Source: a virus
Virus record (IMG/VR): IMGVR_UViG_3300023109_001303
Span: 1 to 25,821 of that record
DNA length: 25,821 nt
Reading direction: 5' to 3' (one strand)
Shown: in pieces, positions 1 through 25,821 of the stretch
Layout: each line of letters opens with the position of its first letter
How positions within the stretch are numbered: the stretch's first letter is position 1
Notes under the pieces: generated by a model
Database searches by the model: none
Told to the model about the DNA's origin: nothing
What the model saw: the letters and a program-made list of their open reading frames with translations, nothing else
Translations under genes and position numbers: made by a program

Positions 1-74
1 CTGAGAAGGACTTAGACTTTTGGAATAAGGCAACACCTAAAAAGCAATTCTTGAGTGACTTAAAACTTATATAA
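1..74 (+). CDS. 3' end of an unidentified CDS (partial)
   Basis: The frame starting at base 3 is open from the window edge to a TAA at 72-74 and gives about 23 residues ending in LSDLKLI, lysine-rich and without a recognisable motif. The other two forward frames contain stops at once, and the next gene follows with a normal spacing and its own GGAG ribosome binding site, so this looks like the C-terminus of a gene starting outside the window. Function cannot be judged. Confidence 0.55.
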   Translation, partial: EKDLDFWNKATPKKQFLSDLKLI

Positions 75-84
75 TGGAGATACT

Positions 85-798
85 ATGAAATACACCGCTG
101 AATTTATGAAAACACTTGGGTACTACCAATACGGCTACTATCCTAACGGAAAATTTGATAACACTATAAACCCACAATACGATGGTAAAGGTGTTAAAAT
201 GAGATGCCTAGACCATCTTAAAGATAAACCTGTAGATGTCGACAATCTAATTATTATCGGCAGAAACTTAGAAAAGTTTACTGAAGGTCGAGATGCTGTT
301 GAAGCTGTTCAAGCTGCAACTGAATCTATGCGAATCAATGTACTCGAACCAAAGCTTAATAAAATCAAAGGAATGTATGATGAACTATGGGTCAAAACTC
401 CTATCAGTGTTCTTCGTGATGAGTGGTTAAAAACTCAAATTAATCCAGTTGCAGAATCACATAAATTTTGGAATGCTCATCCAGAGCTCGAAAGCGTTAC
501 TCAAGCAACTACAACAAACTCCTCTGGTTCTGTTTACCAAACACAAAGAATTAAAGGTACAGAATACAAGCTCTATGTTAACTATACTATTGACGGACCT
601 GAAGTTACTATTAAGGTTAACTTTAGTAGGAAAGGAGTTGATGGCATGACAATGGACGAACTATTTGAAAAGTGGTCTACTCAATATGCAGAACTTGAAA
701 CAACTCCAGCAGGAGCTGATGGTGAATGGATTATTGCTGAAATAGGAAGCATTGAAGATACCATTGAATTTTTTGTTGAGGCAGCTACCTATGAATGA
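85..798 (+). CDS. hypothetical phage protein, 237 aa
   Basis: I do not recognise this gene. It starts at an ATG eight bases after a GGAG ribosome binding site and encodes a soluble, mildly acidic protein with no signal peptide or membrane segment. The first 45 residues are rich in Tyr, Gly and Asn. The middle (about 75-130) looks helical and charged, and the C-terminal third (about 140-237) looks like alternating strands and acidic helices. It reads into a small CxxC protein and then a small membrane protein through overlapping starts, so the three are probably co-transcribed. Being next to the tail-tube-like gene is weak evidence for a structural or accessory role. The gene call is secure; no function is claimed. 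Confidence 0.8.
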   Translation: MKYTAEFMKTLGYYQYGYYPNGKFDNTINPQYDGKGVKMRCLDHLKDKPVDVDNLIIIGRNLEKFTEGRDAVEAVQAATESMRINVLEPKLNKIKGMYDELWVKTPISVLRDEWLKTQINPVAESHKFWNAHPELESVTQATTTNSSGSVYQTQRIKGTEYKLYVNYTIDGPEVTIKVNFSRKGVDGMTMDELFEKWSTQYAELETTPAGADGEWIIAEIGSIEDTIEFFVEAATYE

Positions 799-997
799 TT
801 TAAAATTTACAACAGCAGGTGATTATATGAACCAAGAAAAAGACAAGTGCGGCATGTGTGGCATTGAAACAGAATACACTAAAGATACTCATGTTGATAT
901 GCGATATGGGTATGTAGAAGGTGCCGGTCAATTCTGCAGAGTATGCTATACAGCAGGTATTGATTCTGACAAAACTTTCGTGCACGAATATGAATAA
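791..997 (+). CDS. small double-CxxC (zinc-binding) protein, 68 aa
   Basis: The protein carries two CxxC pairs, CGMC (residues 20-23) and CRVC (49-52), separated by 25 residues. This arrangement fits a four-cysteine zinc ribbon or knuckle. Similar tiny CxxC proteins are common in T4-like marine phages, usually without assigned function. The start at 791 overlaps the previous stop by eight bases (ATGAATGA). An internal ATG at 827 has a better-spaced AGGTG site and would give a 56-residue protein that keeps all four cysteines, so the true start is uncertain. Nucleic-acid binding or protein scaffolding is inference only. Confidence 0.7.
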   Translation: MNDLKFTTAGDYMNQEKDKCGMCGIETEYTKDTHVDMRYGYVEGAGQFCRVCYTAGIDSDKTFVHEYE

Positions 998-1151
998 AGT
1001 TTGGAAAATTTGGCAATACAGCCTTGGCGGATATTCAGACGATAAGACTGAGCCCTATGATAAGTATATCACAATTGTAAGAAGTATTGTAGTGGGTGTT
1101 AACTTTATTACTTGCTTCTTTATTATGGCAAACGCTATTCACCACTGGTAA
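990..1151 (+). CDS. small single-span membrane protein, 53 aa
   Basis: The ATG at 990 overlaps the stop of the upstream CxxC gene, the usual coupled arrangement here. A longer reading from 921 would bury most of that gene, so I prefer 990. The product has a basic-aromatic N-terminus (MNKVWKIWQYSLGG), a polar stretch and one hydrophobic segment (about residues 28-50, IVVGVNFITCFFIMANAI) ending in HHW. This shape, a short Trp/Lys-rich head plus one membrane span close to the C-terminus, recurs in cyanophage and related genomes as an uncharacterised family. It is probably an inner-membrane protein. Its role is unknown. Confidence 0.65.
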   Translation: MNKVWKIWQYSLGGYSDDKTEPYDKYITIVRSIVVGVNFITCFFIMANAIHHW

Positions 1152-1153
1152 TT

Positions 1154-1870
1154 CTACCAATTCTTAATATACAACATAAAGCTTGATGGTAAAACATGTT
1201 TCCAATTCTCTTGGAACATTACATCAAGTGTTGCATCGCCTTGTGCATAAACACGACCCATATCTATAAATGGTTTAACAACAGTATCTCTCCAATTTTC
1301 AAAGCGTTGATCGCTTCCATAAAAAGATTGATAATTGACTCTTACTGCAATGAAGCGAACATTCTGCCCAAGAAAATCTAAATTATCTTCATGCAATATA
1401 TTAAACTCTGCACCATTTGCTGATACTTTTAAATAGTCAATATGTTGTATATCGTAATAGTCAGTTAATTCTCTTAGTGACATTAGTTTAGTATCTTCAG
1501 TTGCACCATATTCCATTGCAATTGTTTTATCTAAATCTGTTCTACCCATAGCTGCATCAATAGGCATTAGTTTTGGTAGTTCATCTTGTTCCATACCAAT
1601 ATAAGCTTCGGCACAATTTTTAATAGCTGTTTTGAGATGCTTACGGTTGGATTCAATCATGTAAACTTTCTTTGCACCAGCATCAAGTGCTTTAGCTGAG
1701 AACATTCCAATTTGAGCACCGATATCAACTACAATATCACCAGGTAATACCTCGTGCCACCAGTCGTAATCTTTTCGTTGGAAAAAGGAATAATAAAGGG
1801 AATTGATATGATTAATGGATAAATCAGCAGTATCCATCTCGAAATTTAGGTTCTTGGGTTTTGAAAACAT
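1154..1870 (-). CDS. FkbM-family SAM-dependent methyltransferase
   Basis: This 238-residue minus-strand protein has a Rossmann methyltransferase core. Motif I is VVDIGAQIGMFS (about residues 48-59), followed by an acidic second strand (VYMIESNRKH), the pattern of FkbM-type O-methyltransferases. These act on sugars or small molecules, and phages and surface-polysaccharide loci often carry them. It is the only complete gene above about 100 codons on the minus strand in this window, and it sits between plus-strand accessory genes and a tail gene. That isolation suggests a separately acquired and separately regulated gene. A GAGG lies about 11 bases before the ATG. The substrate (phage glycan, host surface sugar or nucleotide sugar) cannot be told from sequence. 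Confidence 0.8.
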   Translation of the reverse strand: MFSKPKNLNFEMDTADLSINHINSLYYSFFQRKDYDWWHEVLPGDIVVDIGAQIGMFSAKALDAGAKKVYMIESNRKHLKTAIKNCAEAYIGMEQDELPKLMPIDAAMGRTDLDKTIAMEYGATEDTKLMSLRELTDYYDIQHIDYLKVSANGAEFNILHEDNLDFLGQNVRFIAVRVNYQSFYGSDQRFENWRDTVVKPFIDMGRVYAQGDATLDVMFQENWKHVLPSSFMLYIKNW

Positions 1871-1886
1871 TATATAGTTCGCCTCG

Positions 1887-1894: not shown

Positions 1895-1924
1895 GTATAA
1901 TAAACAATCATTGGAATTTATTGT

Positions 1925-3202: not shown

Positions 3203-4689
3203 GTGAACAGATAACCTTAGAACCTATTAATTCAGTCCACATGAAAGTTGTTGCAGATAGCGGCACACTCATGGAATTGGCTGAGCAATTTAGTTTCAGA
3301 CCAGAAGGTTATCAATTTGTTCCTGCTTATAAGAATAGAGTATGGGACGGAATTATAAGATTATTCCAACCAATGCGACCAATTATCTATGTTGGTTTAT
3401 ATCCACATATTAAAAAGTTTTGTGATGACCGTGGATATTTCTTATCCGCACCAGACCACATTGGAACAGACGAGGAATTTGATGACGATTATCCTACTCA
3501 GCTCTCTGAAGAAATCAATTGTAAGTTTATACCAAGAGATTATCAATCAGAATATGTACTTAACGCATTGCGTAAACGCCGATCTTTATCTCTATCACCG
3601 ACATCATCTGGTAAGTCTTTAATAATCTATTTAATACAACAACATTATTTTCAAGCATTCGGCCACAGAACATTAATTATTGTACCAACTATTTCTCTAG
3701 TCCACCAAATGAAAGGTGACTTTGTAGATTATGGTTGTGATGTGAATGATATCTATACTATTCAAGGCGGTGTTGATAAAAATACTAGCTCACCGATTGT
3801 TATATCTACATGGCAATCACTTATTAAATTAAAGAAAGATTGGTTTGACCAATTCAAAGTTGTACTTGGAGATGAAGCACACACATTCCAAGCAAAAAGC
3901 TTAACAAAGATTATGGAATCATTAACTGACTGTGAATACCGACATGGATTTACAGGTACATTAAAATCATCAGAAAGTAAAACTCATAGGTTAGTACTTG
4001 AAGGATGTTTTGGTGAGGTTAAACGATTTGTGAATACAAAAGAACTAATGGATAAAGGAACTGTAGCTGATTTTAAAGTTAAAGCGATCGTGTTATCTCA
4101 TAGTAATGAAACAAGAAAGAAATTTAAAGATGCTCTCAAGAGTTTAGATGGAACAAAGAAATGGCCAGCTGAACGAGAGTTTATTGTGAACAATGAGAAA
4201 CGAAATAACTTTATTAAGAATCTTGTTCATAGTTTAGAAGGCCAAAACAATTTAATTCTATTTGACCTTGTAGAGAAACATGGTAAAGTCTTAGAACCTT
4301 TGCTTCGCAAAGAAGGAAGAGAGCTTCACTTTATATATGGTGGAACCAAAGGTGAAGAACGTGAGAACATTCGACATCATGTTGAGAATGATTCTGAAAA
4401 GAGGCATGACATACTTGCTTCCTATGGAGTATTCTCTACTGGAGTGAACTTGAAACGTTTAGACAATGTGATATTTGCTACTGGTTCTAAGAGTGAAATT
4501 AAAGTACTACAATCTATCGGTAGAACATTGAGGAAGGCTGACGACTCTACCGAAGCTACCTTATATGATATTACTGATGATTTATCTGTTGGAAGTTTTG
4601 AGAACTATACCTTGAAACACTTTAAGAAAAGGATAGAAATATACGGAGCTGAAGAGTTCCCTTATAAGATTTATACTATCGAAATATAG
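3199..4689 (+). CDS. uvsW: UvsW DNA/RNA helicase
   Basis: This is a 496-residue superfamily 2 helicase, close to T4 UvsW (503 aa). Visible elements are an N-terminal DNA-binding region (1-100), the Q-like IPRDYQ before motif I, Walker A SPTSSGKS (133-140), motif Ia IIVPTISLVHQ, the DEAH box (225-228) in LGDEAHTF, motif III FTGTL, motif V GVNLKRLDNV and motif VI QSIGRTLRK. UvsW unwinds branched recombination intermediates and R-loops, and in T4 it switches replication from origins to recombination. The gene overlaps the preceding membrane protein by ATGA and ends the uvsY operon before a terminator at 4734-4759. A minus-strand promoter just beyond it would make RNA antisense to its 3' end. Confidence 0.95.
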   Translation: MSEQITLEPINSVHMKVVADSGTLMELAEQFSFRPEGYQFVPAYKNRVWDGIIRLFQPMRPIIYVGLYPHIKKFCDDRGYFLSAPDHIGTDEEFDDDYPTQLSEEINCKFIPRDYQSEYVLNALRKRRSLSLSPTSSGKSLIIYLIQQHYFQAFGHRTLIIVPTISLVHQMKGDFVDYGCDVNDIYTIQGGVDKNTSSPIVISTWQSLIKLKKDWFDQFKVVLGDEAHTFQAKSLTKIMESLTDCEYRHGFTGTLKSSESKTHRLVLEGCFGEVKRFVNTKELMDKGTVADFKVKAIVLSHSNETRKKFKDALKSLDGTKKWPAEREFIVNNEKRNNFIKNLVHSLEGQNNLILFDLVEKHGKVLEPLLRKEGRELHFIYGGTKGEERENIRHHVENDSEKRHDILASYGVFSTGVNLKRLDNVIFATGSKSEIKVLQSIGRTLRKADDSTEATLYDITDDLSVGSFENYTLKHFKKRIEIYGAEEFPYKIYTIEI

Positions 4690-7064: not shown

Positions 7065-8126
7065 ATGAAGATTGCGATCGTAACAGACTTACACTTTGGC
7101 GCTCGAGGAGATAGCCGAGTATTCCATGAAGTACAAAGAAAGTTTTTCCAAGAGGTATTCTTTCCTTATGTAGACGAACAAGGTATCACAACTGTGTTTG
7201 ACCTTGGTGACACCTTTGATAGAAGAAAGTATGTTAACTTCGTAAGTTTAGACAGGTGTCGTGAGTTCTTCTTTGATGAGCTTAACAAACGTAAAATTGA
7301 TTTTCATTGCTTAATTGGTAATCACGATATCTATTATACCAATACAAATAGCATTAACAGCATGAATCTATTATTGCAAGACTATAAACACTTTAATCTA
7401 TATGAAGATAAAGCTGAGCATATTGAGATTGGTTCAACAACATTCTTGATGCTACCTTGGATTAATAAAGAAAATGCAGAATATAATTACAAGATGCTTG
7501 CCGAAAGTAAAGCTGATGTAGTTATGGGTCACCTTGAAGTCAAAGGATTTGAGATGTTAAAAGGTGTTCCATGTACTCACGGTACAGAAATGGAAGTATT
7601 TAAGAATTTTGAAGATGTTTACTCTGGTCATTTCCATCACCCATCTCGCTATGGAAATGTAGAATATCTCGGAGCACCCTATGAAATGACTTGGTCAGAT
7701 TATAATGGTAGCCGTGGATTCCATGTCTTCGATACTGAAACAAGAGAGATGACCAAACACGAAAACCCTAACAAAGTCTTTTATAAAATAGATTATGATG
7801 ATTCAGATTGGACAGTGGATACTGTAGCCAATTTTGATGTTGACAAATATAAAGATACATTTGTAAAGGTAATTGTGAAAAACCGTACCAATGCTTATTT
7901 GTATGACCTCTTTATGAGTCGTATGAGTGAGTCTGGTGCAGTTGATGTCAAGGCAATTGATGATAATCTTAACCTTGAACATGTCGGAGTCGATGAAGTA
8001 CTTGACGAAACAAAAGACACTGGAGAAATCCTTCACCAGTATATAGATAGTATAGAGACCCAAGTCGATAAAGGAAGAGTAAAACAAGTTATCGACGACT
8101 TATATCATGAGGCCCTTAGTTTATAA
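7065..8126 (+). CDS. 47: gp47 recombination nuclease subunit (Mre11-like)
   Basis: This 353-residue calcineurin-like phosphoesterase (T4 gp47: 339 aa) has its metal-binding motifs in order: TDLHFG (residues 7-12), DLGDTFDRR, IGNHD, MGHLEVKG and YSGHFHHPS. With gp46 it forms the Mre11-Rad50-type complex that resects double-strand ends to start recombination-dependent replication and degrade host DNA. The C-terminal part (about 250-353) is acidic and helical and probably binds gp46. Its stop overlaps the gp46 start by one base (TAATG). It belongs to the cluster begun at the gp55 promoters. Confidence 0.96.
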   Translation: MKIAIVTDLHFGARGDSRVFHEVQRKFFQEVFFPYVDEQGITTVFDLGDTFDRRKYVNFVSLDRCREFFFDELNKRKIDFHCLIGNHDIYYTNTNSINSMNLLLQDYKHFNLYEDKAEHIEIGSTTFLMLPWINKENAEYNYKMLAESKADVVMGHLEVKGFEMLKGVPCTHGTEMEVFKNFEDVYSGHFHHPSRYGNVEYLGAPYEMTWSDYNGSRGFHVFDTETREMTKHENPNKVFYKIDYDDSDWTVDTVANFDVDKYKDTFVKVIVKNRTNAYLYDLFMSRMSESGAVDVKAIDDNLNLEHVGVDEVLDETKDTGEILHQYIDSIETQVDKGRVKQVIDDLYHEALSL

Positions 8127-9838
8127 TGCGAATTCAATTTAAGAAAATTAAATACAAAAACATATTATCCACAGGAAACAACTTTACCACAATTGATTTT
8201 GATACCAAACCAACCACTCTAATCAGTGGTACTAACGGTTCGGGTAAGAGCACATTGCTTGATGCGATCGTGTTCGGTCTATACGGAAAGCCATTTCGTA
8301 AAGTCAACAAAGGTCAGTTAATCAATACAATTAATAACAAAGAGTTATTGGTTGAGATTTACTTTCAAGTTGGTGGTAAGAACTATATGGTGAAACGAGG
8401 AATGAGACCCGTTGTATTTGAAATCTATCAAGATGGTCAACTCATTAACCAAGACGCAGCAAAGAAAGATTACCAAGAGTATCTAGAAACATCTATTATT
8501 GGTATTAATTATAAATCTTTTAATCAGATTGTTGTACTTGGTTCAGCTACCTATGTTCCCTTTATGGAATTACATGCTGGAGCAAGAAGAGATATCATTG
8601 AGGATTTACTAGACATTCAAGTATTCAGTACAATGGGATGGTTAGCTAAAGACCAAATGAAAGAAACAACTGATGACATCAATGATAATGCTTATCAGAT
8701 TGAGTTAACAGAATCTAAAATCGAAAGCGCTAAAGAGAATAACAACGAGATTCGTAAGATTAAAGAAGTTGAAGTATCTAAAATTAAAGAACGTATGGGT
8801 GTAGAAATAGATGCTGTAGAATCTAAAAACGAAATCATCGATACACAAGATGAGATTATTAAAACTCTTTATGATGATATATCCGATAAAGCTGACGAGA
8901 AAGAAAAATTCCAAGAGGCTACAGAAAAGAGAGCAGAACTTGAACGAATGCGTATTGCGTTTGATAAAGAGCTTAGTTTCTATGAGCACAATGATGATTG
9001 CCCAACCTGTAAACAAGGTATTGAGCACGACTTTAAACAAGAACAAATTAATAATAAGAACGAACAAAAAGAAGATATCGAAAGAGGATTAGCTGCAACA
9101 GCAAAAACAATTAAGACACACCAAGACAGACTCAACTCAATATCTAAAGTCGAAACACAAATACAAAATGTTAACTTCAAAATCTCAGAGTATCGTGCTG
9201 AAATCAAAATGTCTAAGAATGCTTTAGTAGCTATGAAGAAAGAATTAGATAATGCACAAAGAGAAGTAGATGAAGTTGATGTTAGTAAACTTTTAAAATT
9301 AGAAAAAGACTTAGCAAAGAAACAAGAACAGAGAACAGAACTTCTTGATGAACGAGAAGTACTCAGTGTTGTTAGAACTATACTACAAGATGGTGGCATC
9401 AAAGCTCGTATTATCAGTCAGTATATTCCAGTTATGAATAAGCTTATAAACAAATATTTAGCTGCATTCGACCTCTTCGTTGACTTCCAACTTGATGAGA
9501 ACTTCAATGAGATTATCAAATCTCGTTTCAGAGATAAGTTCTCTTATGCTTCTTTTTCAGAAGGTGAGAAACTACGTATTACACTTGCGATCATGCTAAC
9601 ATGGCGATCAGTTGCTAAATTACGTAACTCAGTATCTACAAATCTTCTTATACTTGATGAAACTCTAGATGGTGCACTTGATAGTGTAGGTATCGAAAGT
9701 TTAATTGAAACTCTGCACAGCTTGAATGCTGATGACAATGTATTCGTTATCTCACATAGAGGTGACCAATTCGCAGAGAAATTTGACACTAGTATCACGT
9801 TCCAAAAGGTGAAAAACTTTAGTGAGATTGCTGCATAA
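8126..9838 (+). CDS. 46: gp46 recombination nuclease subunit (Rad50-like ATPase)
   Basis: This 570-residue SMC-type protein (T4 gp46: 560 aa) has Walker A GTNGSGKST (35-43) and a Q-loop region near 130-145 (FNQIVVLGSATYVPFMEL). Two long coiled-coil stretches (about 190-285 and 300-405) flank the zinc hook CPTC (292-295). The ABC signature SFSEGEKLRI and Walker B LLILDETLDGAL follow, with the H-loop in VISHRG. The hook dimerises two molecules through zinc; the heads clamp DNA and power gp47. Several long opposite-strand open frames over the coiled coil are composition artefacts. The consensus promoter of gp43 begins five bases after its stop. Confidence 0.96.
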   Translation: MRIQFKKIKYKNILSTGNNFTTIDFDTKPTTLISGTNGSGKSTLLDAIVFGLYGKPFRKVNKGQLINTINNKELLVEIYFQVGGKNYMVKRGMRPVVFEIYQDGQLINQDAAKKDYQEYLETSIIGINYKSFNQIVVLGSATYVPFMELHAGARRDIIEDLLDIQVFSTMGWLAKDQMKETTDDINDNAYQIELTESKIESAKENNNEIRKIKEVEVSKIKERMGVEIDAVESKNEIIDTQDEIIKTLYDDISDKADEKEKFQEATEKRAELERMRIAFDKELSFYEHNDDCPTCKQGIEHDFKQEQINNKNEQKEDIERGLAATAKTIKTHQDRLNSISKVETQIQNVNFKISEYRAEIKMSKNALVAMKKELDNAQREVDEVDVSKLLKLEKDLAKKQEQRTELLDEREVLSVVRTILQDGGIKARIISQYIPVMNKLINKYLAAFDLFVDFQLDENFNEIIKSRFRDKFSYASFSEGEKLRITLAIMLTWRSVAKLRNSVSTNLLILDETLDGALDSVGIESLIETLHSLNADDNVFVISHRGDQFAEKFDTSITFQKVKNFSEIAA

Positions 9839-9895: not shown

Positions 9896-12442
9896 ATGAG
9901 TATGACTTCATTCTACACTTCAGTCGAGCGTTACGGCAATAATATCTTGCATCGTGGTTACGAAAACGGTAAACGTTTTTCATATCGCGTTCCTTATAAG
10001 CCAACTCTCTACTTACATACACCAAAATCCGGTGACGAGGGATATACTTCTCTTAAAGGTAATTTACCATTGAGTCCACAGCAGTTTGGCTCGATGCGTG
10101 AATCCAAAGAATTTACTGAAGAATACAAAGGTGTTCACGGTATGAAAATCTTTGGTAACACAAACTATACTGCTCAATTTATCCAAGAAAATTATCCCGA
10201 CGATGTACGTTATGACATTAACCAAGTCAACATCGTCAGCTTCGACATCGAGGTCGATATCAGTGACGGGTATGCAAACACAGAATATGCTGACAAAGAA
10301 ATCACATCTATTGCATACAAATCTTCAAAATCAAATATCTATTATTTGCTTGGTCGTAAAGACTTTGACAAGACTCAAACTATCACTGGTATTGACCCCG
10401 ATAATATTATGTTCATCAAGTTTGACTCAGAGGTACAATTACTGAGACGCTTTGTTGAGATATGGGTATCTGATTATCCTGATGTTGTAACAGGTTGGAA
10501 CGTCCAATACTTTGACATTCAGTATATTGTGACTCGTATTACAAATCTATGTGGTGAAGAGTTATCAAAACGACTCAGCCCTTGGAATAATATTCGTAAA
10601 TATTCGCGAGAAGTATTTGGTAAGGTACAATCATCTTACACAATTTCAGGTGTTGCTGTTATTGACTATATGGATGCATTCAAAAAGTTTGGTTACAAAT
10701 ACGGACCACAAGAATCTTACAGACTTGACCATATTGCAAATGTTGTACTCGGTGAAAAGAAACTTGACTATTCTGAATATGGTAACTTGACTGCTCTTTA
10801 CGAACAGAATCCACAACTCTATCTCGACTATAACTTAAAAGATACACAGCTTATTGAAAGGCTCGAAGAGGAAACATCTCTACTTGCTCTTGTGATGACT
10901 GTTGCTTATGGTGGTGGAGTTAACTATAACGATGCATTTGGTACTGTTGGTATCTGGGAATCTATTATCTATCGTAAACTTATGAAAGATAAAATTGTTC
11001 CACCAATTAAAGAATCACCAGGTCAACGAGGTTCTGGTCTTGTAGGTGGTTATGTTAAAGACCCTAAACCTGCAATGTACCCTTGGGTAGTATCATTTGA
11101 CTTGAACTCACTATATCCTCACTTGATGTTACAATACAATATGTCACCTGAAACTTATTCGCATGACGACCGTGAGTATGTAACTCAAGACATGGTACTC
11201 AAAGGTGAGTTTAAAAATACAAACAAAGATTATTCAGTTGCAGCCAATGGTGCATGTTTCAGTAATAAAAAGATGGGTATCATTCCAGAGATTATTGATG
11301 AGTACTATAATAACCGTGCCAAAATCAAACAACAGATGCTTGCAGTTGAACAACAACTTGAAGTTGAAACTGACCCAGCTGAAAAGAAAAAGTTAAAGAC
11401 AGAAGCTAACCAATTACATAATTCTCAGATGTCCATAAAGATTTCTATGAACTCACTTTATGGTGCTACAGCAAACATATATTTCTTATACTATATTAAT
11501 GATATGGCTGAAGCTATTACAACATCTGGCCAGCTCAGTATTCGATATGCAGAAAAATCTGTAAACGATTATCTTAACAAAGTACTTAAAACAACTAACA
11601 AAGACTATGTTATCTATATTGATACTGACTCAGTCTATGTTGACTTTGCTTCACTCATTGAACAAGTATATGGTACGACAGACATTGATCGCAAGACTGG
11701 AGAAGAGTTCTTAGATAAAGTCTGTAAATCAAAAATTGAAGAAATCATTGAAGCAGGTTACGAAACTCTTGCATCTGATATGGGTGCCTATCGTAATGCG
11801 ATGGTAATGAAAAGAGAGAAAATCAATGACCGTGCAATCTTCATTGCAAAGAAACGATACATACTGAATACTCTCAACTCAGAAGGTGTTCACTATGAAA
11901 AACCAAAAATCTCTGTTACAGGACTTGAAAGTGTTCGTTCATCTACTCCAGAGATATGTCGTGACAAGATGCGAGAAATCTTCAACGTAATTCTAAACGA
12001 AGGTGAAGAGCAAACTCAAAAATTCATTAGTGACTTTAAACAAGAATTCTTTAAACTACCTGCACAGGTTGTTGCTCGTAACTCAGGTACTGATAACATT
12101 GAGAAGTATATGACCAAGGGTGGTTACAAGAAAGGCTGTCCTATACATGTTCGTGGTTGTATCTTGTTTAACCATTATCTTAAAGAGAAAGGTCTCAGTA
12201 AACGATACGAGTCCGTTCAGTCAGGCGATAAGATTAAGTTCGTCTATCTCAGAGTACCAAACCCACTTCGTGAAAATGTAATATCATTTCCAAATGTTCT
12301 ACCAAAAGAACTTGGACTCGAGCAATATATAGATTACGAAACACAATTTAACAAAGTTTTTCTCAGTCCCATAGAGCATATCATTGAAGCTCTCGGCTGG
12401 ACTTCAGAAAAACAAGATAACCTTGACGACTTTTTTAGTTGA
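9896..12442 (+). CDS. 43: DNA polymerase gp43 (family B)
   Basis: This is an intact 848-residue replicative polymerase (T4: 898 aa). The proofreading exonuclease has ExoI FDIEVD (116-121) and ExoII in VVTGWNVQYFDIQYI. Polymerase motif A is FDLNSLYPHLM with Asp402, motif B KISMNSLYGA (from 515), and motif C YIDTDSV with catalytic Asp576 and Asp578. KKRY follows downstream. The C-terminus DNLDDFFS is acidic-hydrophobic, the expected clamp-binding tail. No intein, split or frameshift interrupts it, although split gp43 genes occur in other T4-like phages. A second ATG two codons after the first is an equally possible start. Its TGA stop lies within the -35 box of the next promoter. Confidence 0.98.
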   Translation: MSMTSFYTSVERYGNNILHRGYENGKRFSYRVPYKPTLYLHTPKSGDEGYTSLKGNLPLSPQQFGSMRESKEFTEEYKGVHGMKIFGNTNYTAQFIQENYPDDVRYDINQVNIVSFDIEVDISDGYANTEYADKEITSIAYKSSKSNIYYLLGRKDFDKTQTITGIDPDNIMFIKFDSEVQLLRRFVEIWVSDYPDVVTGWNVQYFDIQYIVTRITNLCGEELSKRLSPWNNIRKYSREVFGKVQSSYTISGVAVIDYMDAFKKFGYKYGPQESYRLDHIANVVLGEKKLDYSEYGNLTALYEQNPQLYLDYNLKDTQLIERLEEETSLLALVMTVAYGGGVNYNDAFGTVGIWESIIYRKLMKDKIVPPIKESPGQRGSGLVGGYVKDPKPAMYPWVVSFDLNSLYPHLMLQYNMSPETYSHDDREYVTQDMVLKGEFKNTNKDYSVAANGACFSNKKMGIIPEIIDEYYNNRAKIKQQMLAVEQQLEVETDPAEKKKLKTEANQLHNSQMSIKISMNSLYGATANIYFLYYINDMAEAITTSGQLSIRYAEKSVNDYLNKVLKTTNKDYVIYIDTDSVYVDFASLIEQVYGTTDIDRKTGEEFLDKVCKSKIEEIIEAGYETLASDMGAYRNAMVMKREKINDRAIFIAKKRYILNTLNSEGVHYEKPKISVTGLESVRSSTPEICRDKMREIFNVILNEGEEQTQKFISDFKQEFFKLPAQVVARNSGTDNIEKYMTKGGYKKGCPIHVRGCILFNHYLKEKGLSKRYESVQSGDKIKFVYLRVPNPLRENVISFPNVLPKELGLEQYIDYETQFNKVFLSPIEHIIEALGWTSEKQDNLDDFFS

Positions 12443-15832: not shown

Positions 15833-16516
15833 ATGAGTAAAACTGAAAAGAACCTTGTGTTCCAAGTCCAAATAAAGCCCAATGGCGGTCGCTCAGAAGG
15901 CAAGAAAAAATTCCATTACGCCCAAGACTTGTATGATTACTCTACTTCAAGAGCAAAAGCTTATGCTGAAAAGAATGGAGCAGAGTATTTTCGTTTAACA
16001 ACTGACGAATGGTTAGGTGGACAATATTCACCTGCTTATCATAAGCTTTATATTTACAAACTATTCGAGCAAGGGTACGATAAAATTATGTATTTGGATA
16101 GTGATGCTATTATTACTAAAATTTGTCCTAACTTATTTGAGAACGATGAATTTTCAGCAATGATGGATTACGGCTATAATACAGAAGCTGCTGCAGCAAA
16201 ACAAAAAAGATTTAACGATCGCTTAGGAATACCAGATGAGCATATATACTTTTGCTCAGGTACAGTTTTATTTGATAGAAAATATTACGAAGCGACTAAA
16301 GACCACTGGCAAGAGCAATTAAATGTTCCACAACCACAGCATGACCAATCACTATTTAATGTTTTAGTTGGTAACCATTATGGTAAATACACAAACATAA
16401 GTAATGAGTGGGGTCACTGGGGTAAAAAAGGTAAGTACATTCAGCATGTAACTACTGCAGGTGGAACTAAAACTTTTGACGAACAAAAATTTTTGGACTG
16501 GGAATCCAAATTATAG
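15833..16516 (+). CDS. GT-A glycosyltransferase (GT8-like)
   Basis: This 227-residue protein has the nucleotide-sugar-binding DxD of GT-A enzymes in KIMYLDSDAII (Asp89, Asp91), preceded by an acceptor-side helix with YHKLYIYKLFEQGYD. YFCSGTVLFDRKYY and an HDQSLFNVLV segment follow, the order seen in GT8 and related families. No signal peptide or membrane span is present, so it is cytoplasmic. It is the first gene after the promoter at 15781 and lies directly behind the hydroxymethylase and deaminase, ahead of a GT-B-like protein and a C5-methyltransferase-like protein. Sugar transfer to modified DNA is the attractive inference; a glycan or protein acceptor is the alternative. Confidence 0.78.
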   Translation: MSKTEKNLVFQVQIKPNGGRSEGKKKFHYAQDLYDYSTSRAKAYAEKNGAEYFRLTTDEWLGGQYSPAYHKLYIYKLFEQGYDKIMYLDSDAIITKICPNLFENDEFSAMMDYGYNTEAAAAKQKRFNDRLGIPDEHIYFCSGTVLFDRKYYEATKDHWQEQLNVPQPQHDQSLFNVLVGNHYGKYTNISNEWGHWGKKGKYIQHVTTAGGTKTFDEQKFLDWESKL

Positions 16517-16531
16517 AATGGAGAATTATTG

Positions 16532-17656
16532 ATGAAAATTTTAATTACAGGGTTTAACAAAGAGCAATGTACCAAAGATTACTATCTTGGTAAAGAGCTT
16601 AAGATTCTAAACTCACATTACAGTTTAATTCGTTGCCTCGAAGATATGGGCCACGAGATTGAACAACGAACAATTACTATAGGCGAAGACCTTAGCGGAT
16701 ATGATAAAGTTATCATTTATCTTTCATCTGTTAAATCTTTTGCTCACCATGCTTTCGATGCACTATATGCACTGACTGCAAGACCTGATGCAATTTTAGC
16801 TAACGATGATTGGCAAGTGCGTGAAGTATTTACCTCATTTAAATTGTATGAAGAAAATCTTATTGCTCATAAAGAATCGGGCAAACCATTTTACGATTAT
16901 GGAACAAATACATACCTAGCAAATCTATATAAAGGTGATACACCACTTGAAGATATGCATAAACATATTGATACATTCATAGATGCATGTCATATAGTTA
17001 ACGAAAAACTGAATACATTAATACTATGTACATTTGCAGGTGGTGAAAACGAGTTATTTAAGATTGACTACAAAGGTGAGATTATTAATTATAATCCAAA
17101 CCCTTACAATCTTAATCGTAGACCCGAAAACAATTATGGTGAGGATGTTGGATTACTTGGATTCTTTGATGATGAACCAGTTATTCTCTCACCAGAAGAA
17201 AAGAAATTAAGATGGATATTCTCATCTATTGTACAAAGTAAAACAATGGGTTGGTTCAACAAACAGAAACCAACTTGGGATGTATTAAACTTTGGCCCAA
17301 GACGAGAAACAAAACAAACTAAAGGCATTGAAACATATAGAGTGAAAGAGCCTGAGATGTGCAAAATCTATAATGAGAACTGGGGTTGTATGATGCCAGA
17401 ATACTATCATGCAGGTTCTGGTTGGTGGCGTTCTCGAGTTCAACAAGTTGCTGATGTAGAGTCGGTACTTGTATGTTCAGATGCAGAAGGTAAAATTTAC
17501 GGGGAGGCATACGTTGGAAATACTATTGAAAGTGTTGAGAATATGTCTATTGAAGAATTAACAAAACTGGGTAAGGCTCAAAAAGAATGTCTTTATGATA
17601 ACCACCCATTAAATAAGGCGACACAAAGAAGTGAGCTTTTAGGAGTAGTAGAATGA
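16532..17656 (+). CDS. GT-B-like glycosyltransferase candidate, 374 aa
   Basis: The ATG at 16532 has a GGAG site nine bases upstream; the reading frame can be extended by one TTG codon, but that is not needed. The start MKILITGFNKEQ and following HYSLIRCLEDMGHEIEQRTI, then YDKVIIYLSSVKSF, look like the N-terminal Rossmann half of a GT-B enzyme. T4 beta-glucosyltransferase (351 aa) opens in the same style. The C-terminal part (about 290-374) has CMMPEYYHAGSGWWRSRVQQVAD and a LGKAQKECLYDNHPLNKATQ helix like the closing helix of GT-B proteins. I do not see a decisive catalytic motif. Context, between a GT-A enzyme and a C5-methyltransferase-like gene, supports nucleic-acid glycosylation; confidence in family is moderate. 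Confidence 0.6.
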   Translation: MKILITGFNKEQCTKDYYLGKELKILNSHYSLIRCLEDMGHEIEQRTITIGEDLSGYDKVIIYLSSVKSFAHHAFDALYALTARPDAILANDDWQVREVFTSFKLYEENLIAHKESGKPFYDYGTNTYLANLYKGDTPLEDMHKHIDTFIDACHIVNEKLNTLILCTFAGGENELFKIDYKGEIINYNPNPYNLNRRPENNYGEDVGLLGFFDDEPVILSPEEKKLRWIFSSIVQSKTMGWFNKQKPTWDVLNFGPRRETKQTKGIETYRVKEPEMCKIYNENWGCMMPEYYHAGSGWWRSRVQQVADVESVLVCSDAEGKIYGEAYVGNTIESVENMSIEELTKLGKAQKECLYDNHPLNKATQRSELLGVVE

Positions 17657-18885
17657 AACATGCAGGAATTATCCCGCTGATTGGAGGGGAGATATTAGCA
17701 TCTGACGAAGCTTACGGAACAAAGCCTGAGTATTTAATGACTTACGGCGGATTCGAAGGTAACGAAAAACATTTGCTTAATTATTATAAAGAACAAGGAC
17801 ATGATTTACCTTATCATGTTATCGATGGTGATAATGCACCTAAGCGATATAATAAAGTTGATGTGGTATCATCGGTATGTCCCTGTGCAGGATTAAGTAG
17901 TTATCATAATTCTTATGGTGAAGAAAATCCAAATAACCAATGGCTTGTAAAATCTACAAAGTTTGTATTAAATGAAATTGCTCCTAAAGTTCTATGGGGC
18001 GAGAATGCTCCTGCTCTTGCAACTAATGTTGGCGCATTTATGAAAAAGAAACTTATGGAAATTGGTAAAGAAGCTGGTTATAATATGACCATCTATACTA
18101 CTAAAACATTGTTACATGGTAATCCTCAAGTTCGTAGACGTTCATTCTATTTCTTTTGGAAAAAAGATGTATTTAATAATAAGGTACCAACGTTCGAGTA
18201 TTTTGATAAACCAATGCCGACCATTACTGACTTGTTAATAGAAACAAAATCTAATTTCCAAACAGAAACAATTAATAAGCGTATTCCATCTCAAGATGAC
18301 CCATACTACAAATACTTATTAGAAGAAATTAAAGGTGGAATGAGTCATACTGATTTTGCAGCAGAGTTAAGAGAAGACAAAACATTTACTAGACCATCAT
18401 ATAATATTGAAAGTGAACTTATACATCACCACGGTAAAAACTATGCTGAAATATCTGAATACATGAGAGGGCAAGGACTTGACAGAGAAGCCGATAAATG
18501 TATGAGAAGATATGAGAAATTAAAAGCTGGGGGTGGAGTAATGTGGAGAGGAACATTGATTCCTGTTCGACACATTGGAGCCTTCGTAGTGCATATGCCA
18601 CATGTTCTCACGCATCCTGTTGAAGATAGATATATAAACATAAGGGAAGCAATGAACATTATGGGCCTTCCAGAAGATTATGAACTACTTGACCCAGAAA
18701 AAAGCATCAACCACATCTGCCAAAATGTACCTTACAAGACTGCAAGGGATATGGCTAATCAGGTTAAGAAAGCAATAGAGAAAAAACTACCTATGGAAGA
18801 TGCTACCTATATGTTACAAGACAATCTATCACAGCGTATTCGTGATAGCCACTCATCTATTGATATAACAGAGTTTATGGCATGA
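17653..18885 (+). CDS. C5-cytosine DNA methyltransferase-like protein
   Basis: This 410-residue protein shows the catalytic half of C5-cytosine methyltransferases: motif IV SSVCPCAGLSSYH (Pro-Cys with Cys78), motif VI ENAPAL (Glu117), motif VIII NPQVRRRSF (157-165), and closing IX/X-like segments NIREAMNIMGLPEDY and INHICQNVPYKTARDMANQV. The N-terminal region, where the SAM-binding FxGxGG motif I should be, reads PLIGGEILASDEAYGTKP and YGGFEGNEKHLL. That is atypical, and the cofactor site cannot be confirmed. It overlaps the GT-B-like gene and DexA by ATGA. It could methylate host-like sites for self-protection, or be a diverged cytosine-modifying enzyme. Family assignment is good; exact reaction is open. 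Confidence 0.8.
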   Translation: MKHAGIIPLIGGEILASDEAYGTKPEYLMTYGGFEGNEKHLLNYYKEQGHDLPYHVIDGDNAPKRYNKVDVVSSVCPCAGLSSYHNSYGEENPNNQWLVKSTKFVLNEIAPKVLWGENAPALATNVGAFMKKKLMEIGKEAGYNMTIYTTKTLLHGNPQVRRRSFYFFWKKDVFNNKVPTFEYFDKPMPTITDLLIETKSNFQTETINKRIPSQDDPYYKYLLEEIKGGMSHTDFAAELREDKTFTRPSYNIESELIHHHGKNYAEISEYMRGQGLDREADKCMRRYEKLKAGGGVMWRGTLIPVRHIGAFVVHMPHVLTHPVEDRYINIREAMNIMGLPEDYELLDPEKSINHICQNVPYKTARDMANQVKKAIEKKLPMEDATYMLQDNLSQRIRDSHSSIDITEFMA

Positions 18886-19508
18886 AGAAACATTTAGTAC
18901 TTGACTTCGAAACAATGGGGACTGAGCCTACAACATGCGCAGTCGTTGATTGTTCAGTAATGATTTTTGATTGGGATAATTTTACAACCAATCCTTATAC
19001 TCCTGCGGACATTAACAAGACTCGTAGATTTAAACTCAATGTTTCAGAACAGGTCAAGGACTATGGTTACAACATCGAAGAGTCCGTTATTAAGTTTTGG
19101 CAAGAACAATCTAAAGAAGTTCGTGATAAAATTAAACCATCACAGCAAGACCTTACAGTAAAAGAGTTCGTATCCAACTTTCACAATTTAGTTGTTGATG
19201 AAAATATTGGTCATTGGTGGACTCGTGGAAATGCTTTCGACCCAATAATTATTACAAGACTATTTGATAGTCAAGGCCGTAAAGCACATCTCTATAACTA
19301 TTTGAAGTACTATATGGTACGTGATATGAGAACTTATATTGATGCTAAGTTTAACTTTGAAAATAAACAAAACGGATTCTGTCCCATTGCCGATTCAGAA
19401 AAATGGGATAAAATATTTAAGGCGCATGATAGCTCCTGGGATGTCTTGGCTGATGTACTCAGACTACAAGCGATCGTAAGAGCAGAAAATGATTTGGAGC
19501 AAGTATGA
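18882..19508 (+). CDS. dexA: exonuclease A (DexA), DEDDh 3'-5' exonuclease
   Basis: This 208-residue protein (T4 DexA: 227 aa) has LVLDFETMG near the N-terminus (Asp and Glu of ExoI), ESVIKFWQEQSKEVRDKI like the T4 helix following it, a WWTRGNAFDPIIITRLF ExoII region (T4: WCRGMSFDFPIL), and the closing HDSSWDVLADVLRLQ with the ExoIII His and Asp. In T4 it degrades DNA from 3' ends and is non-essential. It overlaps the methyltransferase-like gene and the following glycosyltransferase by ATGA, so a nuclease is co-translated with DNA-modification candidates. Confidence 0.88.
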   Translation: MKKHLVLDFETMGTEPTTCAVVDCSVMIFDWDNFTTNPYTPADINKTRRFKLNVSEQVKDYGYNIEESVIKFWQEQSKEVRDKIKPSQQDLTVKEFVSNFHNLVVDENIGHWWTRGNAFDPIIITRLFDSQGRKAHLYNYLKYYMVRDMRTYIDAKFNFENKQNGFCPIADSEKWDKIFKAHDSSWDVLADVLRLQAIVRAENDLEQV

Positions 19509-20356
19509 AAATTGAAATTAAAACAGAAGAACTAAGAAAGTATAATATCTTCGTTGGCACACCGATGTATGGTGGTCAAGCGACAGGCCTTTACACGAAG
19601 GCTACCAACGATCTAAGCATGTTATGTGCTACTCATGGTATCCCATTAAAATACTATTTCCTTTTCAATGAGAGCCTTGTACAACGTGCTAGGAACTATA
19701 TAGTAGACGAATTCATGCGTTCAGATTGTAGTCACTTATTATTCATTGATGCAGACATTGCATTTAACCCTCGTGATGCTTTAGCATTACTTGGTGTACA
19801 TTTACAAGACCCAGAAGAATATCCTATCGTAACTGGACCTTATCCTAAGAAAACAATTGCATGGGAAAAAGTAGCTAAGGCAGCTCAAATGGGCAAGAGT
19901 GATGAGAATCCATTTGAACTAGAAAGATTTACATCTGACTTCGTATTCAACCCAGTTAAAGGTATGCAACAATTTAAATTGAGTGAACCTGTTGAAGTAC
20001 AAGAAGCAGGAACTGGATTTATGTTAATTAGTAGAGAAGCATTAGAGAAATATCGTGATGCATATCCTGAGTTATCATATCTACCAGACCATGTCAGAAC
20101 AGAACAATTTGATGGCACAAGAGAGATTACAGCTTTCTTCGATTGTGTTATCGACCCAGATTCTAAGCGTTACTTATCAGAAGATTATTTCTTCTGTAAG
20201 CAAGCCCGTAAAGCGGGTCTGAAAGTTTGGATGTGTCCTTGGATGCAACTAAACCATACAGGAACATATATCTTTAAAGGTGGTATGGGTTCCATTGCAG
20301 AGCTTGGAGTAACAGCAACCGCTGATTCTACCTCTTCCAAAAAGAGTTACAAATAA
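19505..20356 (+). CDS. GT-A glycosyltransferase
   Basis: This 283-residue protein has IFVGTPMYGGQ at its start, an SLVQRARNYIVDEF helix and a DxD in HLLFIDADIAFNPRD (Asp82, Asp84). It then has EVQEAGTGFMLISREAL and, late, YLSEDYFFCKQARKAGLKVWM, where the SEDYxFC resembles the catalytic ED motif of inverting GT-A enzymes. No membrane segment. It terminates the cluster begun at 15781 and precedes the gp45 promoter. Similar proteins occur in T4-like phages, with some relatives linked to sugar addition on hydroxymethylcytosine, but the donor (glucose, arabinose or other) and acceptor cannot be read here. The short serine/lysine C-terminus (TADSTSSKKSYK) is probably disordered. Confidence 0.8.
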   Translation: MKIEIKTEELRKYNIFVGTPMYGGQATGLYTKATNDLSMLCATHGIPLKYYFLFNESLVQRARNYIVDEFMRSDCSHLLFIDADIAFNPRDALALLGVHLQDPEEYPIVTGPYPKKTIAWEKVAKAAQMGKSDENPFELERFTSDFVFNPVKGMQQFKLSEPVEVQEAGTGFMLISREALEKYRDAYPELSYLPDHVRTEQFDGTREITAFFDCVIDPDSKRYLSEDYFFCKQARKAGLKVWMCPWMQLNHTGTYIFKGGMGSIAELGVTATADSTSSKKSYK

Positions 20357-20419: not shown

Positions 20420-21082
20420 ATGAAATTTTCTAACGAAACCTTGAGTGTCCTTAAGAGCTTTACCGCAATCAACAAATCTATTCAGATGAAACCCGGTAAT
20501 GTTCTCAAGACAATTACTCCAGAAAAAACGCTTATTGCAATTGCAGAAATCCCAGATGAAATACCAAGCGAAGCTTGCGTATATGATTTATCTAGATTCC
20601 TGTCAATTCTAGGCTTATATAATGACCCAGACGTTGAGTTTGGCGATAAGTATTTTACTATCTCAGAAGGTAAGAGGCGAACCAAGTATGTCTACGCAGA
20701 CATCTCTATGATTCATACTCCGCCTGAAAAAGATATAAATATACCATCTGAAGACGTCGTAGTAAGTGTAACGGAAAGTGACCTTTCCGCAGTGCTTAAA
20801 GCGGCAGGAGTTCTTCAGTTCACAGAGATTGCATTTGTAGGTGAAAACGGCAAATGTACTCTGAAAGCGATCGACAGTGCTAACGACAACACAGATGACT
20901 TTGGTGTTGAAATTGGTGAAACTGACGATGAGTTTAAAGTCATCATTAAAACTGATAACTTGAAGCTAATGCCGATGGATTACGAAGTTACCATTTGTTC
21001 AAAAGGTATCTCAGAATTCAAAGGGGATAACGTCACTTACTTTGTGGCAATAGATTCAAAGTCAACATATAATAAAGGATAG
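20420..21082 (+). CDS. 45: sliding clamp gp45
   Basis: This 220-residue protein (T4 gp45: 228 aa) has the phage clamp architecture of two similar domains. The N-terminal MKFSNETLSVLKSFTAINKSI, LIAIAEIPDEIP and VYDLSRFLSILGLYNDPDVEF, and the C-terminal DLSAVLKAAGVLQFTEIAF and NLKLMPMDYEVTICSKGISEF, match the family closely. The trimeric ring tethers gp43 to DNA and is also the mobile activator of gp55-dependent late transcription. It has its own consensus promoter and a long leader with AGGAG about 11 bases from the ATG. In T4, RegA represses gp45 translation; RegA is encoded 2 kb downstream here. Confidence 0.95.
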   Translation: MKFSNETLSVLKSFTAINKSIQMKPGNVLKTITPEKTLIAIAEIPDEIPSEACVYDLSRFLSILGLYNDPDVEFGDKYFTISEGKRRTKYVYADISMIHTPPEKDINIPSEDVVVSVTESDLSAVLKAAGVLQFTEIAFVGENGKCTLKAIDSANDNTDDFGVEIGETDDEFKVIIKTDNLKLMPMDYEVTICSKGISEFKGDNVTYFVAIDSKSTYNKG

Positions 21083-21459: not shown

Positions 21460-22407
21460 ATGCAACACAAAACAAATGAAGTACTCTGGGTAGAAAAGTA
21501 TCGTCCACAATCTATAGACGACACAATCTTACCAGACAAAATGAAAAACACGTTTCGTAAATTTGTAAACGACGAAAACGTACCAAACTTATTACTAACC
21601 GGTGGACCAGGAGTAGGTAAAACTACGATCGCTAAAGCCATGCTCGATGAAATGGGCTGTGACTATATCGTTAAAAACGGTTCTCTAAACGTGAATATCG
21701 ACACTCTTCGATATGACATCTCAACTTATGCAAGTGCTGTTTCCCTTAGTGGTGGCAGAAAATATGTAATCTTTGACGAAGCAGATTATCTCAGTGCAGC
21801 TAATGTACAACCTGCTCTTCGTAATTTCATTGAAGAATATTCATCGAACTGTGGATTTATATTTACTTGTAATTTTAAGAACAGAATTATTGCTCCACTC
21901 CGTTCAAGGTTATCTGAAGTAGATTTCTCTATTGAACAGACAGAGCGTCCAGCTCTTGCTATGCAATTCTTTAAACGAGTTATTAATATTCTTGAGAATG
22001 AGAATGTTAACTATGATAAAGCAGTTGTAGCAAAAGTAATTGAAAAACACTTCCCAGACTTTCGTAGAGTATTAACTGAACTACAATCTTATGCAGCTTC
22101 AGGTAAAATTGACGAAGGTATATTTGTAAATCTAAAACAAGAAAGTATTGATGAACTATTTAGTTTACTCAAAGCGAAAGACTTTACAAATATGCGTAAA
22201 TGGGTAGCAAGAAACTCAGACCAAGACATGAATGAAATGTTTCGTAGAATCTATGATGCATCATCTGAACGTGTAGAATTTAAAACACTACCAGGGTTTG
22301 TAGTTACTATTGCCGACTATATGTATAAGAGTAACTTTGTAGCTGACCAAGAGATTAACATGGTTGCTTTTCTAACAGAAGTTATGATTGAATCTGAGTA
22401 TCTCTAA
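21460..22407 (+). CDS. 44: clamp loader large subunit gp44
   Basis: This 315-residue AAA+ ATPase (T4 gp44: 319 aa) has VEKYRPQSIDD at the N-terminus, Walker A GGPGVGKT (48-55), Walker B FDEAD (105-109), a PALRNFIEEYSSNCGFIFTCN sensor 1 region and SRL in place of the SRC arginine-finger motif. With gp62 it forms the 4:1 complex that opens gp45 and loads it on primer-template junctions. It starts behind a GGTGA site, with no clear promoter of its own after the terminator at 21400, so expression probably comes from read-through. Its stop overlaps the zinc protein start (TAATG). Confidence 0.97.
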   Translation: MQHKTNEVLWVEKYRPQSIDDTILPDKMKNTFRKFVNDENVPNLLLTGGPGVGKTTIAKAMLDEMGCDYIVKNGSLNVNIDTLRYDISTYASAVSLSGGRKYVIFDEADYLSAANVQPALRNFIEEYSSNCGFIFTCNFKNRIIAPLRSRLSEVDFSIEQTERPALAMQFFKRVINILENENVNYDKAVVAKVIEKHFPDFRRVLTELQSYAASGKIDEGIFVNLKQESIDELFSLLKAKDFTNMRKWVARNSDQDMNEMFRRIYDASSERVEFKTLPGFVVTIADYMYKSNFVADQEINMVAFLTEVMIESEYL

Positions 22408-24334: not shown

Positions 24335-24426
24335 AAATTGTGAATACGAATTATCGGTTCACATTAGCGGTGTGCTAAAAGCCACCAATTTAGTATAACA
24401 ATAATCTTGCTTAAAAGGAGATAAAA

Positions 24427-24879: not shown

Positions 24880-24886
24880 CTTTGAC

Positions 24887-24907
24887 GAGAGGGTGTAATG
24901 CCCTCTC
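24887..24907 (+). terminator. perfect stem-loop between hsp20 and peroxiredoxin
   Basis: GAGAGGG (24887-24893), a seven-base loop and CCCTCTC (24901-24907) pair perfectly. No T-run follows, so it may be an mRNA stabiliser or processing site rather than a classic terminator. Peroxiredoxin starts 23 bases later behind an AGGAAA site. Confidence 0.5.
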
Positions 24908-24930
24908 ATTAACCTAATAGGAAATATATT

Positions 24931-25449
24931 ATGGAAACTAAAAGAGTACCTCAAGTAACATTTAAAACTCGCTCTCGAAACGTAGATACTGGTGACTTTG
25001 AATGGCAACATCCAACAACCGCTGATTATTTTGGTGGTAAAAAGGTAATTGTATTCAGCTTACCTGGTGCGTTTACTCCAACATGTTCTAACTTCCAAGT
25101 ACCTGGCTATGAAGCTTTGTATGAGGATTTTAAAGCAGAAGGGATTGATAATGTTTATTGTATATCATGTAATGATGCTTTTGTTATGAATGCTTGGTTA
25201 CAAGACCAGCATGTAAAAAATGTTGAATTTATACCAGATGGTTCATGCGAATTTACCGCTGGAATGGATATGATTGTAAAGAAAGATAACTTAGGATTTG
25301 GTGCAAGGTCTTGGAGATATGCTATGATTGTAAATGATGGCGTGGTCGAAAAGATGTTTGTCGAACCTGGGAAATCTGATGATTGTGAAACTGACCCTTA
25401 TGGAGAAACATCACCTGAAACAGTATTAGAGTTTATTAGGGGAGCCTAA
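24931..25449 (+). CDS. peroxiredoxin, Prx5 family
   Basis: This 172-residue thiol peroxidase has the Prx5 signature PGAFTPTCS with peroxidatic Cys52, then VPGYEALY, the family-typical SCNDAFVMNAWL and GFGARSWRYAMIVNDGVVEKMFVEPG, which holds the conserved active-site Arg. Other cysteines (Cys77, Cys80) are candidates for resolving roles, but the arrangement could also be one-Cys, using glutaredoxin or glutathione. In some bacteria the same domain is fused to a glutaredoxin; here a stand-alone glutaredoxin lies at 12788. It would reduce hydrogen or alkyl peroxides in the cytoplasm. It directly follows hsp20, so the pair looks like a stress-response unit, probably late expressed. Confidence 0.93.
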   Translation: METKRVPQVTFKTRSRNVDTGDFEWQHPTTADYFGGKKVIVFSLPGAFTPTCSNFQVPGYEALYEDFKAEGIDNVYCISCNDAFVMNAWLQDQHVKNVEFIPDGSCEFTAGMDMIVKKDNLGFGARSWRYAMIVNDGVVEKMFVEPGKSDDCETDPYGETSPETVLEFIRGA

Positions 25450-25451
25450 TC

Positions 25452-25492
25452 AAAAACAATCCACGTAGGTGACATCCTACCCGGCCGTTTTT
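25452..25492. other. compact nested hairpin, possible terminator for the minus-strand gene
   Basis: GTAGG (25467-25471) and CCTAC (25476-25480) form a hairpin with a six-base loop. Flanking runs AAAAAC and GTTTTT can pair around it. Read on the minus strand, the hairpin is followed by a five-T run, matching a terminator for the gene ending at 25520. Its GC-rich CCGGCC is unusual in this AT-rich sequence. Confidence 0.4.
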
Positions 25493-25495
25493 GGA

Positions 25496-25521
25496 GGGAA
25501 GCTATATGCTTCCCTTTTTTT
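25496..25521 (+). terminator. strong Rho-independent terminator after peroxiredoxin
   Basis: GGGAAGC (25496-25502), loop TATAT, GCTTCCC (25508-25514), then seven T residues (25515-25521). This is the best terminator in the window. It separates the plus-strand block from the converging minus-strand structural gene. Confidence 0.9.
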
Positions 25522-25821
25522 ATGTAACTAATCCAGGCATGTCGATGTAGCTTCCGCCTCCACCGCCGCCTCCGCCACCGGAGATACGAGTATTTGCTAC
25601 TCTTGCTCCACCGGTTGATGATTGAACTGATATAGGATTAGTACTATTATTTACGTTGTTAACAATAATTGGGCTACTATTGTTTCCTGTCATTGCAGCT
25701 GCAATTTTATCAGTCATATTAGCAACATTTGGATTTGTTTTTAATCCTTCAAGTATTTGTCCTTCAAAACTTGCTCTTGGAATAACTGCTTCATGGCCGT
25801 GAAGCATTGCGAGTGTTCCTT
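25520..25821 (-). CDS. C-terminus of a tail/structural protein (partial, runs off the window)
   Basis: The minus-strand frame is open to the window edge. The ATG near 25807 is internal, because in-frame sequence upstream reads GTLA, giving GTLAMLHGHEAVIPRASF. The LHGxEAVIP motif is typical of the C-terminal regions of phage tape-measure and other long tail proteins. After it comes a disordered Asn/Ser/Thr-rich stretch, a run of nine glycines and the final SYIDMPGLVT. Only the last 100 residues or so are visible. The orientation opposite to the replication block and the shared terminator region mark a module border. Tape measure versus another large virion protein cannot be decided. Confidence 0.7.
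   Translation of the reverse strand, partial: GTLAMLHGHEAVIPRASFEGQILEGLKTNPNVANMTDKIAAAMTGNNSSPIIVNNVNNSTNPISVQSSTGGARVANTRISGGGGGGGGGSYIDMPGLVT

Follow-up and report, generated by a model that had tools for sequence, protein, structure and literature searches.

The 25.8-kb phage fragment examined here, IMG/VR record IMGVR_UViG_3300023109_001303, has lost most of its GATC tetramers, and 12 of the 14 that survive lie within GCGATC on at least one strand. The fragment was analysed over its whole length of 25,821 nucleotides, referred to below as the window. It comes from a lytic-type, T4-like marine phage and carries gp43, gp44, gp45, gp46, gp47, gp55 and UvsW; no isolate phage had a near DNA match to it, and its DNA polymerase was at best 45% identical to those of isolate phages. 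We tentatively interpret the pattern as avoidance of restriction at GATC, with escape at sites where the cytosine just before the tetramer may be modified in a GpC context, an interpretation built from sequence comparisons among the window and its uncultured relatives. These relatives were gathered by their polymerase (80), by their C5-methyltransferase (45), and in further cases by other genes of the modification cassette described below.

A maximum-order Markov model predicted 87 GATC sites in the window (observed/expected 0.16), making GATC the most depleted of the 256 tetramers. A codon-shuffled null, in which synonymous codons are permuted while codons and amino acids are kept, predicted 66, with a minimum of 43 over 200 shuffles. 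An original prediction made by eye from the sequence had listed the 14 sites, each at its exact coordinate, and had put GC content near 35% (computed, 35.5%); the depletion it described was borne out under both nulls, with ratios far from 1. It had also described GTAC and CATG as undepleted, and they were, at 92 vs 84 and 96 vs 97 relative to the codon-shuffled expectation, with AGCT near or above its expectation. Two other words, ACGT (42 vs 86) and CTAG (25 vs 50), were both about two-fold down. Codon usage was rejected as a cause of the GATC loss, since the shuffled null already preserves it together with the amino acids, and ratios in the outgroups are about 1; an assembly artefact was rejected because the same pattern reappears in contigs from different metagenomes.

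The surviving sites, comprising eight CGATCG and six one-sided sites (C at -1 on one strand only), all have a C before or a G after the tetramer, as had been predicted, and sites that do not overlap CpG number 0, where shuffling gave 47 (47.4). The rule that emerges from the counts is tighter than CpG, and concerns the -2 base, which is the base before the C at -1. Sorted by this base, observed and codon-shuffled counts in the window were 12/2.6 for G, 1/7.7 for A, 1/1.9 for C and 0/6.9 for T. The contrast was also very steep for one-sided sites in 126 kb of the clade, where observed/expected counts were 12/11.7 for GCGATC, 9/34.6 for ACGATC, 1/8.3 for CCGATC and 0/32.5 for TCGATC, and where sites with non-C flanks numbered 4 against 234 expected. 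Measured relative to the sister, the difference between G and T at -2 gave a Fisher probability of 4e-6, and that between G at -2 and non-C flanks 6e-18, values to be read with the knowledge that related contigs are not fully independent. A dose effect between one-sided and two-sided sites was real in the raw counts, but the -2 base explains most of it. In codon choice, 7 of the 15 Ala-ATC pairs in the window use GCG, which makes up 7% of Ala codons, in agreement with the earlier remark that Ala-Ile is often encoded GCG ATC although GCG is rare.

These counts bear directly on the mechanism first proposed, in which CpG methylation by the phage's C5-methyltransferase shields every GATC that overlaps CpG. 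All 14 survivors in the window do overlap CpG, and the encoded homolog has intact motifs, but because GATC itself starts with G, overlapping a CpG is the same as having C at -1 on one strand, and no CpG-specific process is implied. CpG methylation as such is not the shield, because TCGATC is purged, as is CCGATC but for one site, while GCGATC is intact. Nor can the presence of the methyltransferase alone be the cause, because sisters without depletion carry the gene as well, and so do purged relatives in which no CpG-overlapping site is spared (L104, L210). We therefore consider this explanation very improbable.

The purge is a trait of one T4-like marine clade, and its close sisters are normal. 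The pattern recurs in independent contigs with polymerases at least 93% identical to that of the window (L001-L010) and in L013 (87%), with the GCGATC rule seen in the core clade and at 5 of 6 sites in L013; contigs L015-L022 (83%) have normal GATC, and L028-L031 and the 57%-methyltransferase group have none. In the polymerase tree L013 falls on the side away from the core clade, together with L011, L012 and the sisters that lack depletion, a placement that is weakly supported in its exact position. A 64-kb relative, G006, has 22 GATC vs 164 in the codon-shuffled null, and an undepleted sister 220 vs 173. Larger relatives show extreme counts: G027 (107.9 kb) has a single GATC, a GCGATC, vs about 330 by the codon null, and G063 (88.8 kb) has 0 vs 243-273 expected.

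Comparison of orthologs shows that GATC was lost by substitution. Sister G015 has 62 non-CpG GATC sites, of which one is still GATC in the window orthologs, where AGATCT has become CGATCT, and control words were kept far more often (GTAC 40/89, CATG 34/65). CGATCG was kept at 3 of 12 positions, near the TCGA control (19/73). Non-CpG sites are few at the level of the clade, with three in G006 and a conserved GAGATCTC in homologs of the gene at 16529. The non-C survivors include AGA-TCT, encoding Arg-Ser, in those same homologs, where few synonymous changes would remove GATC.

Loss that is near-total, specific, clade-limited and achieved by substitution in orthologs is best read as restriction pressure, as originally predicted, and we propose that a host nuclease acting at GATC drove the purge. 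A site would escape when the base 5' of its G is a cytosine in GpC, or more weakly ApC, context. That cytosine is most likely C5-modified by the phage's own cassette, through its dCMP (deoxycytidine monophosphate) hydroxymethylase, GT8 glycosyltransferase and C5-methyltransferase homolog, and a modification written with GpC or RCG preference would block the nuclease. Enzymes of the N^GATC type cut next to the base 5' of the G. Since one-sided GCGATC shows no depletion, modification of a single side would suffice. Modification enzymes typically act in this manner, with two bases deciding between full effect and none, and CmoX, discussed below, is a documented precedent for GC-motif specificity in a phage C5-methyltransferase homolog. 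The cassette, with three types of cytosine-acting gene, adjoins gp43.

The cassette lies downstream of gp43 and consists of genes for a gp42-like dCMP hydroxymethylase, a dCMP deaminase, a GT8 protein, the product of the gene at 16529 and the C5-methyltransferase homolog, followed by two further genes (Table 1). Pfam and PHROGs name the hydroxymethylase a thymidylate synthase, an assignment we rejected since the protein is far closer to T4 gp42, and it keeps the dCMP-specific Asp of the GxxND motif. In the methyltransferase family the motifs PC, EN, QxRxR and NVP are kept throughout the alignment, and the folds nearest to the structure model (predicted local distance difference test, pLDDT, 72) are M.HaeIII and M.HhaI; the model of the 16529 product (pLDDT 53) was not used. 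A search for homologs of the methyltransferase on plasmids found none. Phages of the lineage retain the hydroxymethylase, the deaminase and the methyltransferase but differ in the genes between them: GT8 in the clade that follows the GCGATC rule, which accounts for all 14 viral loci found for that gene; GT4, by Pfam, in the sisters and L104; and in G020 an epimerase and a likely UDP-galactopyranose mutase, names that we read from sequence. Six other relatives (L122, L101, G062, G063, L048 and L076) have a hypervariable sugar and glycosyltransferase segment between the deaminase and the methyltransferase. By the same reading, genes in these segments appear to encode UDP-glucose dehydrogenase, epimerases, a cytidylyltransferase-like protein and, in G020, UDP-galactopyranose mutase. 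Such hypervariable segments suggest that uncultured T4-like phages may make many novel cytosine hypermodifications. A GpC or RCG specificity may reside in this methyltransferase allele or in another cassette enzyme.

Relatives in which the purge takes other forms provide a broader view. In L104, L210, L011 and L012, whose cassette has GT4 and a methyltransferase with a recognition region resembling that of the sisters, every GCGATC is gone, and the 4 GATC left in 37 kb are all AGATCT, at two loci each seen twice. GT8 with sparing and GT4 without it is a suggestive association that may link the swapped genes to the rule, on few lineages and with the L013 cassette not covered. In L049 and L050 all C-flanked sites are lost save one AGATCG, and AGATCT is spared (9/7.8). 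Losses fall mainly at C-flanked sites in L052 and L053, and mainly at T-flanked sites in L048, L057 and L059, where TGATCA is absent (0/11.9) and GGATCC and AGATCC are normal. Flank-limited purging is thus general in the lineage, with rules that vary, as they would if either the modifications or the nucleases differed among relatives.

Several of these observations weigh against escape by modification. The methyltransferase family is present without sparing in L104, G027 and G063, and without a purge in the sisters; the L049/L050 purge is flank-limited in its own way, and L049 has neither hydroxymethylase nor methyltransferase between gp43 and gp45. It is also a puzzle that the C5-methyltransferase would be without substrate were all cytosines hydroxymethylated, and coliphages with hydroxymethylcytosine show no site avoidance (PMC6286503). 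The CGATCG enrichment in undepleted sisters, described below, is not explained by the purge. In L049 the hydroxymethylase-methyltransferase cassette is replaced by a glycosyltransferase of the TET-associated family (PF20691, 4e-44; L049:8635-9864).

The main rival to escape by modification is a host nuclease with a flank rule of its own, an extended recognition that cuts poorly or not at all after GC (or AC), with no modification involved. It would fit clades that meet different hosts, and it draws support from the differing flanks spared by the purged relatives and from the missing cassette in L049. We nevertheless judge it somewhat unlikely, as a two-base contrast so steep that GCGATC is fully kept and TCGATC fully lost would be unusual for a 4-bp cutter, and no such enzyme was named in the literature we searched. 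Less probable still is a pressure on adenine-methylated GATC, from a host Dam-like methylase paired with a DpnI-type nuclease indifferent to cytosine modification, the spared flanks being those the methylase skips. This would account for a purge in a phage with hydroxymethylase, and all tested phages of hosts with such systems avoid GATC (PMC6286503), but the methylase would have to pass over almost every GCGATC while acting on TCGATC without restriction, and we regard this reading as improbable.

The window also contains a cytochrome c-like gene with a signal peptide (13012-13335), possibly an auxiliary metabolic gene. The closest cellular relatives of its product are in Halieaceae (50-61% identity), a weak hint that members of this family could be the host.

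A second signal, separate from the purge, is the abundance of CGATCG, which is favoured in both the clade and its undepleted sisters. In the sisters it is about six-fold enriched (47 vs 7.4), with all -2 bases and not G alone, and it is the top over-represented hexamer in G015 and G017, at about 6-fold over the codon null; in the purged clade it is 2.6-fold enriched, and in outgroups G020 and G062 it stands at 0.7-0.8. Because the word is enriched in an undepleted sister, part of what looks like survival is a separate word preference. The over-use of GCG in the Ala-ATC pairs of the window likewise shows that the spared word is favoured, beyond what the purge accounts for. The octamer GCGATCGC occurs at 5 sites in 121 kb vs about 0.25 by an order-2 Markov model, small numbers with mixed flanks in the sister and CGATCG itself about 5x enriched. 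The closest parallel to the CGATCG preference is HIP1 (GCGATCGC) of cyanobacteria, which have orphan GATC/CGATCG methyltransferases and share with the window a scarcity of GATC and over-represented GCGATCG words (PMC4390886). Unlike HIP1, the window is a phage genome, its CGATCG is only about 5-fold enriched, the 8-mer does not appear dominant and no cyanobacterial host is indicated. Protection by a CGATCG-specific host or phage enzyme of the HIP1 or PvuI type, reaching one-sided sites by relaxed activity, would agree with the CGATCG excess in the sisters and with HIP1 genomes, which pair CGATCG methyltransferases with low GATC (PMC4390886). We consider it unlikely, given that one-sided GCGATC is fully kept and that the sisters' enrichment ignores the -2 base. 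A HIP1-type cyanobacterial host is not supported, as the cytochrome c hints at Halieaceae, away from cyanobacteria, and those genomes had no CGATCG excess.

Among known systems, type II site avoidance (Rusinov et al., 2018, PMC6286503) resembles the purge in that a 4-bp palindrome is lost strongly and specifically from a double-stranded DNA phage of non-temperate type. The purge differs in depending on two flanking bases and in co-occurring with a dCMP hydroxymethylase, coliphages with that enzyme having shown no avoidance in the same study. The hydroxymethylase and variable glycosyltransferases downstream of the DNA polymerase resemble the hydroxymethylcytosine glycosylation islands near gp43 of T4 and RB69 (Tevenvirinae, PMC8056088), but here a C5-methyltransferase homolog belongs to the cassette, and T4 glucosylates globally. 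Another C5-methyltransferase homolog in a phage hypermodification cassette is CmoX, the carboxymethyltransferase of Synechococcus phage S-B43, whose action on cytosine is confined to GC motifs (PMC12783734), the context of the spared GCGATC. The window enzyme has VCPC in place of SPPC, and its QNVP keeps Asn where CmoX has Arg350, a position that probably corresponds to HhaI Asn304; it should therefore use ordinary S-adenosylmethionine, and we rejected it as a CmoX-type enzyme because the hallmark residues are absent.

Table 1. Cassette genes and surviving GATC sites in the window.
Feature	Position	Strand	Remarks
dCMP hydroxymethylase, T4 gp42 family	14654..15316	+	T4 gp42 structure E 2e-74 vs ~1e-14 for thymidylate synthases
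dCMP deaminase-like gene	15309..15761	+	named from its sequence; orthologs in relatives
GT8-family glycosyltransferase	15833..16516	+	Pfam PF01501 7.5e-8
phrog_14998 protein	16529..17656	+	function unassigned, possibly glycosyltransferase; directly upstream of C5-methyltransferase throughout clade and sisters
C5-cytosine DNA methyltransferase homolog	17653..18885	+	PF00145 4e-18
phrog_1574 protein, glycosyltransferase-like	19505..20356	+	phrog_1574 1e-59; weak Pfam GT21
GATC survivor	1309..1312		GCGATC on - strand, one-sided
GATC survivor	3581..3584		CCGATCT, one-sided; AGATCT at this place in sister G015
GATC survivor	4086..4089		GCGATCG
GATC survivor	7076..7079		GCGATCG
GATC survivor	8266..8269		GCGATCG
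GATC survivor	9589..9592		GCGATCA, one-sided
GATC survivor	9606..9609		GCGATCA, one-sided
GATC survivor	11687..11690		GCGATC on - strand, one-sided
GATC survivor	13809..13812		GCGATCGC
GATC survivor	16217..16220		ACGATCGC
GATC survivor	19472..19475		GCGATCG
GATC survivor	19610..19613		ACGATCT, one-sided
GATC survivor	20869..20872		GCGATCG
GATC survivor	21627..21630		ACGATCGC

A phage is usually expected either to avoid restriction sites or to modify its DNA. The lineage described here, which has a hydroxymethylase, a C5-methyltransferase homolog and swapped glycosyltransferases, shows a near-total GATC purge with a sharp two-base exception, and its relatives show different exceptions; since phages with hydroxymethylase are reported without avoidance (PMC6286503), the lineage is an exception under either mechanism. 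One possibility, which we consider less likely than not, is that the flanks of the survivors are the footprint of the phage's own sequence-specific modification, placed on C5 in GpC (or RCG) contexts by this clade and replaced by other marks in sister clades with other cassettes, each genome having purged the GATC it could not protect. Avoidance and modification would then be complementary site by site, and the specificity of the modification could be inferred from sequence alone. If modification is causal, the specificities of modification enzymes in uncultured phages would be readable from their genomes; if the flank rules of nucleases are causal, it is novel host nucleases that would be readable from the genomes of phages.

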